This document shows positions 3,671-22,562 of a stretch of 35,124 nucleotides of DNA, piece by piece. A model generated the notes under the pieces. That model was given only the letters and a program-made list of their open reading frames with translations, was not told the origin of the DNA and made no database searches. Source of the stretch: Alkalibacterium thalassium (GTDB lineage Bacteria; Bacillota; Bacilli; Lactobacillales; Carnobacteriaceae_A). Made by a program: the position numbers and the translations under genes. The DNA lies in assembly GCF_900101165.1 (NCBI RefSeq), contig NZ_FNFK01000019.1, positions 1 through 35,124 on the forward strand, written 5' to 3'. Numbering within the stretch: the first letter of the stretch is position 1; each line of letters begins with the position of its first letter.

Positions 3671-3732
3671 TATAAGGAGTGATTAGTAAAAAAAAGTCTA
3701 ATCTGTATGTCTTAGTTTCTTAAAAAAAGTCT

Positions 3733-3868
3733 GAATGCCTCATAAGTTTACGTTATGAAGCATTCGTCAGTTTATAGTATCACCAATGCTTCATATATCC
3801 ATTTTATGAGGTGTTCGTCACCGGAATTAGAAGATGAATGCCTCATAAAACCTAGTTATGAGGCATTC
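3733..3868. repeat. Array A: three 33-bp palindromes, 51-52 bp period
   Basis: Units at 3733-3765, 3784-3816 and 3836-3868, each with 13-nt arms and a 7-nt loop. Left arms are GAATGCCTCATAA, CAATGCTTCATAT and GAATGCCTCATAA; right arms are TTATGAAGCATTC, TTATGAGGTGTTC and TTATGAGGCATTC. Unit 3 is a perfect 13-bp inverted repeat and unit 1 has one mismatch. Loops differ (GTTTACG, ATCCATT, AACCTAG), as do the 18-19 bp between units. It is not CRISPR: repeats are palindromic and diverged. The array sits 62 bp after a terminator and 140 bp before the metallophosphoesterase gene. Array B at 21749 is the same family. Confidence 0.9.
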
Positions 3869-4007
3869 ACGGAATAATCACAATAGTGTAAGATTATGAC
3901 TCTATTTTTTTGTTGAGAATTGGAGTATAGTATAAATCATAACTACTACTTTTCCCGTTCATCGAATCAAACAAGCCACTATACTCATATTCTAAGGAGC
4001 ACAAGCA

Positions 4008-8382: not shown

Positions 8383-8554
8383 CATGCATATGGATGTAAA
8401 GGATATCGATCAACTATAGGCAGAATTGCTTAAATCAGTGGGGGTTTTCAGATTAGAGATGCTGTAACGGCATTTCCTTTAATTCAGGAAGGGCCGAACT
8501 GCTGTTAGTGGATGATTTAACGAGACTTTATTAAAATAATTGACCAGTTTACTG
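8383..8554. other. Non-coding stretch upstream of array C
   Basis: I find no open frame with a ribosome site and no recognisable gene remnant here. Confidence 0.4.
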
Positions 8555-8729
8555 TAACTAAAGAAAATCTGGCAATAGATTGTTCCATTTATAAAAGACT
8601 GAACTGTAACTAGAGGTTCTCTAATGGCATTAACACCTTTAAGAAATAAATAAACTACATCTACAAGCCTCCTAATGACAAGTTCTCAAGCTCTTAGAGA
8701 ATAAAATGTAACTAGACAGCGTCTAGTTA
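8555..8729. repeat. Array C: degenerate 51-bp-period repeat with palindromes
   Basis: The motif TGTAACTA recurs at 8554, 8606 and 8708. In the second copy it opens a TAGAG-gtt-CTCTA hairpin (8611-8623); in the last, a perfect 9-bp hairpin TAACTAGAC-agc-GTCTAGTTA (8709-8729). Their centres are 8617 and 8719, exactly two 51-bp periods apart. The missing middle unit (about 8658-8680) lacks a good palindrome but shares CTAATGACA with CTAATGGCA of the previous unit at exactly 51 bp. Arm sequence differs from arrays A and B. The array lies 250 bp upstream of the DUF6933/pRiA4b gene. Confidence 0.6.
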
Positions 8730-8978
8730 TATCTTATTAAATAAAGAGATCAGTAAAGTAGAATTAGAAATACTTTATTTCAGATGACCGCCGAGTGACT
8801 GACTGAATTAGTTTAGATATAAGCTGCTGAACAAGTAATGGTATTTTCGATTAACTCATATTTTCATTGCAGTATAATTTGCTGTTTAACTCAGGTAAGG
8901 AAAACGGTATGATTAGACTATTAACCAAGAATACAAGCATGCATGAAGACATGTAAGCCACACTCAAGGAGGATCACC

Positions 8979-20336: not shown

Positions 20337-20488
20337 TTTACAATAGTGCTCTATTAGAATGCATTCAACGCCTACACATTAATTGAAGTATTTAATTCTT
20401 TTGCATTTGTACAAGGGTTATTTTTTGTTTTCGGAACCTTGAATCTGTTAAAATGAAATTGAAAGCAAATAACGAAAGGAGCAAGTGT

Positions 20489-21580
20489 ATGCAGAAGTAT
20501 ATATTCAAGTCGCCAAGTCGTTACATTCAGGGAAATGGTGTCATCAAGGAACTCGGTAAAGAGGTTGAAAGTATCGGAAAACAGTCTCTACTGATTTCTG
20601 ATGAGGTCGTGTGGGATATTACTAAGGATATGCTCGAAGAAAGTTTCAGTGAATCCGATAGTAAGTATCATTTCGAACAGTTTAACGGAGAAGCATCGAC
20701 CAAAGAAATCGAGCGTCTAACTGAAGCTGGAAAAGAACAGAATGTGGATGCAGTCATCGGTGTCGGAGGCGGTAAAACTCTTGATACCGCTAAAGCCGTT
20801 TCCGATGGACTAGAAGTACCGGTCATCATTGTACCAACTACAGCTTCAACTGATGCCCCCACAAGTGCATTATCCGTTATTTATTCGGATGATGGTGTTT
20901 TTGAAGGGTACAAGTTCTACGATAAAAATCCTGATCTGGTTCTGATCGACACAGGAATTGTAGTCAAGGCTCCCCTGCATTTATTTGCATCAGGAATGTC
21001 GGACGCTATGGCGACGTTAGTGGAAGTCAAGGCTACGATGAAACGGAACGGTGATACAATGGCAGGCGGAAAGACGACATTTGCAGCTAAGGCAATAGCT
21101 GAAATGGCTGAAGAGGTACTATTTACTCATGGATTAGCGGCTTACAACGCTGTTAAAGAACAGCTCGTTACCCCACAGGTTGATGCCATTGTTGAAGCCA
21201 ATACACTTCTGTCAGGTCTTGGTTTTGAAAATGGCGGACTTGCAGGAGCTCACGCCATTCATAATGGGTTTACTGCAGTAGATGGGGATATCCACGACCT
21301 GACTCATGGTCAGAAAGTCGCATACGGTGTCCTGGTCCAACTTGTACTTGAAAGAAAGTCAGGGGAAGAGATCAAGAAATATATCGATTTCTTTAAAGCA
21401 ATAGACATGCCGACTACTCTTGAAGAGATGCATCTGGATGGCAAATCCTTTGATGAACTGCTTGAAATTGGAGAGCTGGCTACAGCTGATGGAGAAACGA
21501 TGGAGAACCTGGATCCGGAAATCACTCCGACAGAAATTGCTCATGCGATTCTTGCAGTTAATGAATTAAGCGTATCGTAA
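20489..21580 (+). CDS. gldA: Glycerol-dehydrogenase-like iron/zinc alcohol dehydrogenase
   Basis: A 363-aa NAD-dependent polyol dehydrogenase of the GldA family. It shows the NAD-binding VIGVGGGKTLDTAKAV, PTTASTDAPTSALSVIY, and the metal ligands Asp in FASGMSDAMAT, His in GLAGAHAIHNGF and His in LTHGQKVAYG. It oxidises glycerol or a similar diol/polyol; after a PTS plus SIS gene it may instead act on a product of that pathway. ATG at 20489 has GGAG 8 nt upstream and matches the family start (YIFKSPSRYIQG); the earlier ATG at 20453 lacks a site. TAAAAT at 20449-20454 may be a -10. Two hairpins follow. Confidence 0.92.
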   Translation: MQKYIFKSPSRYIQGNGVIKELGKEVESIGKQSLLISDEVVWDITKDMLEESFSESDSKYHFEQFNGEASTKEIERLTEAGKEQNVDAVIGVGGGKTLDTAKAVSDGLEVPVIIVPTTASTDAPTSALSVIYSDDGVFEGYKFYDKNPDLVLIDTGIVVKAPLHLFASGMSDAMATLVEVKATMKRNGDTMAGGKTTFAAKAIAEMAEEVLFTHGLAAYNAVKEQLVTPQVDAIVEANTLLSGLGFENGGLAGAHAIHNGFTAVDGDIHDLTHGQKVAYGVLVQLVLERKSGEEIKKYIDFFKAIDMPTTLEEMHLDGKSFDELLEIGELATADGETMENLDPEITPTEIAHAILAVNELSVS

Positions 21581-21640: not shown

Positions 21641-21653
21641 GCATGTTCATCGG

Positions 21654-21682
21654 AAACCAGCTGATCACTCAGCTGGTTTTTC
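21654..21682 (+). terminator. Rho-independent terminator after gldA
   Basis: Stem AAACCAGCTGA / TCAGCTGGTTT with loop TCAC and TTTTT. Confidence 0.88.
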
Positions 21683-21748
21683 CTTATAAAGAACTGTAAA
21701 AGATATTAAAGGGACATGGCGTATCTACTTTCTACCAATTACTAAAGG

Positions 21749-21882
21749 GAATAGACCATAAAATGATATATGGTCTATTCGATTAAAAATACGAGTGGCG
21801 AATGGTGCATAAAATCTTTTATGGCATATACGAACACCAGAAATTTTATCCAATGGACCAAAAAACTGTATATGACCCATTC
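21749..21882. repeat. Array B: three 32-bp palindromes, exact 51-bp period
   Basis: Units at 21749-21780, 21800-21831 and 21851-21882, each 13-6-13. Left arms: GAATAGACCATAA, GAATGGTGCATAA, CAATGGACCAAAA. Right arms: ATATGGTCTATTC, TTATGGCATATAC, ATATGACCCATTC. Unit 1 has a perfect 12-bp stem; units 2 and 3 are imperfect. Symmetry centres fall at 21764.5, 21815.5 and 21866.5. The arms match array A (outer SAATR, inner CATAA), and in both arrays one unit begins with C instead of G. A weak AGATA/TATCT pair is centred at 21713.5, one further period upstream. The array lies 67 bp after a terminator and 198 bp before the next gene. Confidence 0.88.
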
Positions 21883-22079
21883 AGCAGCACACAAGGTTTT
21901 TCCAGCATCGAAAAGACAGGTTAAATCGAGAAAAATATTCAGCTCAGACTAGTCAAATGCATTTTGTTCAATAAAACACAATATTCATAAAAAAGACACA
22001 AATATAATTAGGAAAAAGCTTCCCTTTGTAAAATTAATTTGTTAAACTATTCACATAACGAAGAATAGGAGAGAATGTT

Positions 22080-22562
22080 ATGAAAAAAGTAATGAATGCT
22101 TTACGCTTTGTTTTCCGTAACGGTGAAACCTGGACAGTTCGCCGTGAACACATCGGGGACTTATGGATCAAGCAGGTTACCACAAGTTTTGGACGTATTG
22201 GTGATGAATTTCAGCAGATCCATCCTTGTGAATCATTAAAAATTGAGATTGCTCATGAAGCTGACAGTGTCAATTCAGATGATATCAACAAAGGTGGATT
22301 GGAAGCAGGCATGTTCGCCCGAGTCAGGCAGTTTCAGGATATCGAAATGATGGATATTTTATATCGTGACCGTTTAAATGGGGAAAAGAGAATGGCAGTC
22401 GAAAAAGACCGCATCTATTTCCCATATAAAGCAATGGACACTGATGGACACGATAATGCGTATCAGTCATCTAAAGAAGCGGATGATAAACTGTATATCG
22501 TCATTGACCCGGAAAGAACAGTAGAAGAGGTCTATCCTCAGCTCAGCGCTGCTCATTCTTAA
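22080..22562 (+). CDS. Hypothetical cytoplasmic protein, 160 aa
   Basis: I do not recognise this family. The protein is soluble and mixed alpha/beta, starting MKKVMNALRFVFRNGETWTV. A repeated basic/acidic alternation (RREHIGDLWIKQVTTSFGRI, FARVRQFQDIEMMDILYRDR) and a Tyr-rich middle (DRIYFPYKAM) precede a VIDPERTVEEVYPQL end. No signal peptide, membrane segment or catalytic motif is evident. AGGAGAGA lies just upstream, codon use is like the neighbours, and a strong terminator follows, so it is a real single-gene unit. It lies downstream of palindrome array B. Confidence 0.75.
   Translation: MKKVMNALRFVFRNGETWTVRREHIGDLWIKQVTTSFGRIGDEFQQIHPCESLKIEIAHEADSVNSDDINKGGLEAGMFARVRQFQDIEMMDILYRDRLNGEKRMAVEKDRIYFPYKAMDTDGHDNAYQSSKEADDKLYIVIDPERTVEEVYPQLSAAHS

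Follow-up and report, generated by a model that had tools for sequence, protein, structure and literature searches.

Sequence-unrelated arrays of phased dyads share a 51/52-bp layout at gene 3' ends in Alkalibacterium and are candidate sites for dimeric DNA-binding proteins

A 35,124-nucleotide stretch of the Alkalibacterium thalassium genome (G000), referred to here as the window, carries two short arrays of palindromic units that raise the question of whether it is the sequence or the geometry of such elements that is kept, and what might read them. For the array at issue, array B, we confirmed the three dyads of the original prediction, with cores at 21749-21780, 21800-21831 and 21851-21882 and spacings of 51 and 51 bp. 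Including their outer C/G positions these units, of which unit 1 is a type F1-B dyad, are 34 bp long (21748..21781, 21799..21832 and 21850..21883, no strand), and they are separated by two strandless 17-bp spacers (21782..21798, which by inspection shows no homology to the spacers of other arrays, and 21833..21849). Searching the window for the dyad pattern with up to three mismatches returned six matches (three units on both strands) against 0.22 expected, a number reached by 0 of 100 shuffles. Array A (3732..3869, no strand) proved equally real, consisting of three F1-A dyads of 35 bp that start at 3732, 3783 and 3835 (spacing 51 then 52) and have a centre one base longer; the difference in middle bases that had been claimed between the two arrays was borne out.

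Array B lies between a gene of the iron-containing alcohol dehydrogenase family (PF00465, 375 aa, 20453..21580, plus strand) and a gene of 160 aa (22080..22562, plus strand). It begins about 65 bp past a terminator-like hairpin (~21652..21683, plus strand) that is common to the sister genome, and ends 197 bp ahead of the 160-aa ORF at 22080; a plus-strand gene does follow each of the two window arrays, as had been stated. The 160-aa protein (22080-22562) has no Pfam or NCBIfam match, is 100% identical between the two sisters, and is found in all 12 genomes of the genus at a minimum of 75% identity. A breakpoint at 21646-21652 adjoins array B, such that ~3.5 kb lying in the sister genome between the match to the alcohol dehydrogenase end and the array are absent from G000. 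In several congeners (e.g. L142-L146, L148 and L149; DNA read by eye) the 160-aa gene is preceded by a short-chain-dehydrogenase-like gene end, which suggests that G000 may have lost this ~3.5-kb stretch right at the terminator before array B. Elsewhere in the window, Y1_Tnp (IS200/IS605-type) is matched in part at the contig edge (5-178, minus strand), with an equal score on contig C42; an insertion sequence probably interrupted the assembly here. What may be an array of a further family (F5, AACTGTAACTAGAG-like), with period 51 and three weak units at 8601..8736 (within 8499-8754, no strand), occupies a ~635-bp gap between two plus-strand genes, its score of 7 being a level also reached by shuffles.

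Both window arrays belong to a family, F1, for which pattern and covariance model searches and a scan of selected stretches identified about 20 arrays in G000 and a similar number in its sister (G007, taken as Alkalibacterium pelagium DSM 19183). The genome-wide pattern search proposed with the original prediction returned, for G000 at up to three mismatches, 34 matches per strand against 13 in a reversed control, and matches with 0-2 mismatches fell mostly at 51-bp steps. Lone units at random spacing, the pattern named as contrary evidence, were not seen in G000: lone F1 units occur at two places (one more weak lone match, C118, L139, was left out of the counts), and these look like deletion remnants since the orthologous places in the sister genome hold triplets. 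Across 80 genomes searched under strict filters with a model built from B units, F1 matches at E <=5e-4 were confined to two of the 12 genomes of the genus, G000 and G007, and a second model search over those 12 genomes found nothing further. A 19-bp-gap F1 pattern sought in a genome contig collection matched 28 stretches, 8 of them from A. pelagium, while the remaining 20 had no full partner dyad (L100 reaching 9/10 on one side only). None of the six viral stretches matching the gap pattern had a full partner dyad, and array queries against plasmid records (two) and phage records (one) gave no match.

F1 arrays usually contain three units with a period of 51 bp, or 52 bp where the centre is 1 bp longer. 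Three subtypes were distinguished: B, with a 4-base centre and period 51; A, with a 5-base centre, a GCCT middle and period 52; and C, with a 5-base centre, a GGCT-like middle and period 52. The gap between the outer edges of adjacent dyads is nearly always 17 bp (16 in a few, such as window array A and L063), centre types are mixed within some arrays, and in one array of the sister genome (L060:4641) the third unit is out of register. Across 100 half-sites of G007 B units, the outer SAAT and inner CATAWA are conserved and the R-N-N-Y middle is free, and the units look as though each had been drawn independently from a single half-site profile; the centres of 26 spacers are A/T-rich. Arrays of differing types also stand side by side (L017, L021, L064, L066 and L068), and at two unrelated places (L060:3258-3599 and L017:3119-3462) adjacent arrays are 104 bp apart, counted from the last unit of one to the first unit of the next.

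The original prediction had suggested that selection acts on the architecture of the arrays, and this claim was supported by a sequence-blind scan for three tandem dyads in which at least 8 of 15 half-site columns agree in 5 of 6 half-sites, over periods of 36-79 and centres of 2-12. Of the 47 strong matches (score >=8) that it gave in G007, G000 and nine congeners, 44 have a period of 51 or 52: all 13 in 340 kb of G007, 18 of 20 in 428 kb of G000 (the others at 46 and 49), and 13 of 14 in 354 kb of the congeners (the other at 65). The G007 and G000 stretches were chosen for their F1 arrays, which are counted among these matches, and the congener stretches were chosen because they hold, or adjoin stretches that hold, prsA or the 160-aa gene. 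When each set was shuffled locally, once or twice, no more than one match of score >=8 arose per set and none at 51 or 52; at score 7 these periods do occur in shuffles. After merging overlaps, 26 arrays at 51/52 remain, 8 in G007, 11 in G000 and 7 in four of the nine congeners (G002, G003, G005 and G010). The half-sites of the non-F1 families are unrelated, and the clean ones are again bipartite palindromes whose middle is loose (clean consensuses being available for F1, F2, F2b, F3, F7, F10 and F12). At the site orthologous to array B, G002 carries an unrelated array of 52-bp period upstream of the same 160-aa gene, and in G009 a period-51 array lies just downstream of that gene. It is the geometry that is conserved and not the sequence, which points to the layout as the feature that is maintained.

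No scan match was found in 400 kb of G011 (380) and G003 (20), and the G011 stretches (C1:1-360000 and C16:80001-100000; L161-L179) hold no dyad arrays in 380 kb, unlike several relatives. Outside the genus, 20 stretches from ten genomes (400 kb) gave three matches of score >=8, at periods 47, 48 and 52. In G021, a member of another genus of the same family, a period-52 array of score 11 resembles a G000 family; this is the one 52-bp array in 140 kb, and five added stretches contributed two matches at period 42 and none at 51/52. Loci from the pattern search outside A. pelagium yielded nine matches of score >=8, none at 51 or 52, which gives an indication of what natural A/T-rich DNA yields by chance.

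Among 36 F1 sites (18 per genome in G000 and G007, 13 orthologous pairs among them), 19 are tandem, 17 convergent and none divergent, as compared with 36 divergent among 139 gaps >100 bp in the same stretches; ORFs were called by a simple length rule, and two of the 36 sites have an array that overlaps an ORF of 101 or 155 aa. Most F1 arrays lie ~70-200 bp from stop codons, and at 35 chosen sites a terminator-like hairpin stands ahead of the array at 33 of 53 gene ends that face it, the figure for the opposite direction being 13 of 53. The 21 non-F1 sites comprise 10 tandem, 9 convergent and 2 unclassifiable ones, with an ORF of 91-140 aa overlapping the array at three.

Whether the dyads act as RNA stems or as sites in DNA bears directly on their interpretation. 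The perfect 12-bp stem claimed for unit 1 of array B is present and folds well, but units 2 and 3 fold no better than shuffles. Covariation of the arms at positions 5-8 gave p=0.13 for G007-B (50 units), 0.32 for G000-B (22 units) and 0.33 for G000-A (20 units), and over 22 F1 units the share of paired arm cells is 71.5%, as compared with 72.4% in shuffles. In G007-B the arms agree nominally at position 6 (p=0.013) and position 1 (p=0.024), both uncorrected. These tests cover units free of indels from sets other than the small G007-A, G007-C and G000-C ones, and have power only where F1 varies, the best conserved positions hardly varying. With no overall covariation between the arms and two of the three window units unfolded, F1 looks like a DNA site bound by a dimer rather than an RNA stem. 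Sequence constraint was assessed across 13 orthologous array pairs of G000 and G007, in which, leaving out gap cells, 492 of 543 motif positions are identical as compared with 251 of 357 in spacers, 191 of 278 in middle and centre and 2377 of 3019 in the outer flanks (partly coding). Over the array itself, alignment is poor for two of the 13 pairs (L064/L023, and L061/L019 near 12347), and the difference between motif and spacers is in part one of ascertainment, since the arrays were found by their motif.

Arrays were also compared within and between the sisters. In keeping with the earlier claim that the two window arrays do not derive from a recent duplication, 14 B arrays of G007 retain no residual homology in spacers or unit order: spacer identity is 12.53/34 against 12.70 under a column-shuffle null, units are no more alike in register (9.53) than out of register (9.49), and likeness within arrays does not exceed that between arrays. 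Recent copying is accordingly rejected for these 14 arrays. Plain tandem duplication acts as well, given the near-identical units of some F2-F4 arrays. In one F1-A array (L133:2969-3107) units 2 and 3 and both spacers are near duplicates, indicating a 52-bp tandem duplication at an early stage. B triplets are complete in 17 of 18 cases in G007 versus 5 of 11 in G000 (p=0.006), and nine of the ten A and C arrays of G000 are complete (p=0.06 vs G000 B); a G000 triplet with a 2-bp loss (L017) is here scored as complete, and the few, mostly decayed, G007 A arrays were left out. In the four of six shortened G000 arrays that align cleanly, 50, 51, 51 or 102 bp are gone and a dyad is left at the junction. 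The L063 array of G007 is absent from G000 and the L138 array of G000 is absent, or nearly so, from G007; when five G007 flanks were looked for in G000, three were matched, one at 71% only. As outgroups yielded no F1, such arrays may be either gains or losses. At the prsA gap, 8 of 10 other congeners inspected by eye have a single short gap that contains one shared terminator and lacks an array (the remaining two were displayed at the wrong ORF), and when all 25 prsA loci were scanned at periods 50-53, arrays were detected in G000 and G007 only.

Several alternative explanations were weighed against these observations. Arrays transcribed to act as RNA hairpins, whether CRISPR-like, TIGR-like or sRNA arrays, would account for tandem units at a constant period and for the folding of unit 1, but the covariation and folding results led us to hold an RNA stem unlikely; the arrays moreover tend to sit past terminators, and an Rfam scan of the window at the gathering threshold returned no family. 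TIGR arrays, as outlined in the available text of PMC12045711, resemble the present ones in being tandem with conserved and variable segments, yet are described there as two alternating 8-12-nt repeats with 9-nt spacers, giving 36-nt RNAs and lying beside tas genes, whereas the arrays reported here have a period of 51/52, are dispersed, and are tied to no one gene. By the same comparison of layout, F1 differs from CRISPR in that its units differ from each other, its spacers are 16-17 bp and its arrays are dispersed, and altogether we consider the RNA reading improbable. An upstream operator triplet regulating the next gene, as the original prediction proposed, agrees with the position of both window arrays and with the 19 tandem sites, which do lie upstream of a gene. 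This reading did not survive the placement data, in which the lack of any divergent F1 site and the 17 convergent ones, together with an almost even tandem and convergent split outside F1 and the tendency to lie past terminators, argue that the arrays are not upstream operators. The flanking genes could be listed by Pfam and NCBIfam as had been suggested, but have many functions and none in common, and the 160-aa gene, present throughout the genus, has an array upstream at score >=7 in only 3 of 12 loci (G000, G007, and G002 with another family), so that we regard an operator as very unlikely. Equally doubtful is the possibility that each dyad is a site-specific recombination site. With its 34 bp divided into 13-bp arms and an 8-bp centre, a unit is built much like a tyrosine-recombinase core, the grouping in threes is reminiscent of res sites, and the clean losses that leave a dyad at the junction could be recombination products; however, the centres differ between units, which strand exchange is not expected to tolerate, the losses also fit slippage between repeats, and there is no matching expansion of tyrosine recombinases. 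Among known systems, BOX (boxB) and MIRU-VNTR elements are likewise tandem, interspersed, short intergenic units, and copy number varies in F2 and F4 as well, but the present units are dyads and one period is common to unrelated families. Multi-dyad operators and partition-type binding arrays also combine several dyads at a fixed helical phasing, from which the arrays differ by being dispersed in many gaps at gene 3' ends and by having many sequence families per genome.

The main rival, less probable than the reading we favour but to be taken seriously, is that the arrays are selfish or commensal extragenic repeats of REP/BIME type, whose dyads are recognised by a transposase or recombinase that inserts them near gene ends, the period being the footprint of the enzyme. 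As far as the available portions of PMC3733652 and PMC2817692 describe them, REP/BIME elements share with the arrays palindromic units of 20-40 bp, clustering, an intergenic location in convergent and unidirectional gaps, several types per genome and restriction to particular lineages. The 34/35-bp F1 dyads, lying in gaps that are convergent or tandem at all 36 sites, fit this description in size and placement, and the same portion of PMC3733652 gives unidirectional and convergent gaps, several types per organism and species specificity as REP behaviour. The confinement of F1 to two sisters among 80 genomes, the arrays held by one sister only, and the adjoining of arrays of differing types also favour this reading. 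Against it, the GTAG/CGTC tag is absent, 44 outward flanks of 22 arrays showing no column above 0.25 bit and no conserved tetranucleotide, and Y1_Tnp matches number 0 in G007 (97% complete) and 7 in G000, with 5 of 12 genus genomes positive, although this is no test for the CGTC class since CGTC REPs are reported, in the available text of PMC3733652, to be without a dedicated transposase. Tyrosine recombinase counts do not track the arrays (6 in G007, 6 in G011 with no array in 380 kb, 3 in G005, 4 in G002, 2 in G001 and 12 in G004), no target duplication was seen at array sites, and the arrays are not copies of each other, as judged from the 14 G007 B arrays. Further differences are the single 51/52 period across sequence-unrelated families and the distance from stop codons, which for most convergent-gap REPs of two species is within 20 bp (PMC3733652, in the part available). 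REP copy number is usually >100; the count made here, which covers F1 alone among the families, is roughly 50-70 units per genome.

The explanation we favour, with a probability of about 0.5, is that the arrays are DNA sites for putative dimeric proteins of fast-changing specificity, which keep their layout and lie outside transcription units. Each of the three dyads would be the site for one dimer of a putative sequence-specific DNA-binding protein, and a 51-bp phasing, about five helical turns, would place the dimers on nearly the same face of the helix, where they could join, presumably cooperatively, in one higher-order complex. The array itself lies beyond the terminators, in the DNA that separates transcription units. 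Several families per Alkalibacterium genome would each have their own recognition sequence while retaining the bipartite half-site of ~15 bp, the short centre, the ~17-bp gap, the period of 51/52, the minimum of three units and the 3'-end location, the reader of each presumably being one of several diverged relatives within a protein family, or else a protein of quickly changing specificity. More speculatively, the complex may act as a boundary or topological element between adjacent transcription units; functions of any kind, be it boundary, topology or selfish spread, are ones that we infer. A reading as DNA sites fits the constant layout and place better than a reading as upstream operators, as RNA arrays or as mobile elements copied recently. 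Against it stand the arms, which change together across families, as a structured hairpin would also give, as well as the arrayless 380 kb of G011, the one array in G021, and the off-period matches of score >=8 in natural DNA.

A broader and more tentative possibility, to which we give less weight, is that the arrays represent a new class of chromosomal element in which the layout is inherited and several sequence dialects coexist in a genome, each with its own fast-evolving putative reader, the same 51/52-bp phasing and a position outside transcription units, and in which dialects are replaced at the same sites between species. A change of dialect may be in progress in the sister pair, where B is complete in G007 but decaying in G000, in which A and C are mostly complete. 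The titles and abstract openings of the literature matches listed, a set drawn without subscription papers or preprints, describe no such arrays.

Repeats in bacteria are usually recognised by their sequence, whereas here repeats unrelated in sequence have the same period and the same kind of location within one genome; repeat finding based on sequence would split such arrays into separate families and so miss the trait that unites them. If a protein family does read the arrays, they would provide a bacterial case of rapid co-evolution between sites and proteins under a fixed geometry, and could then bear on how cells separate adjacent transcription units.
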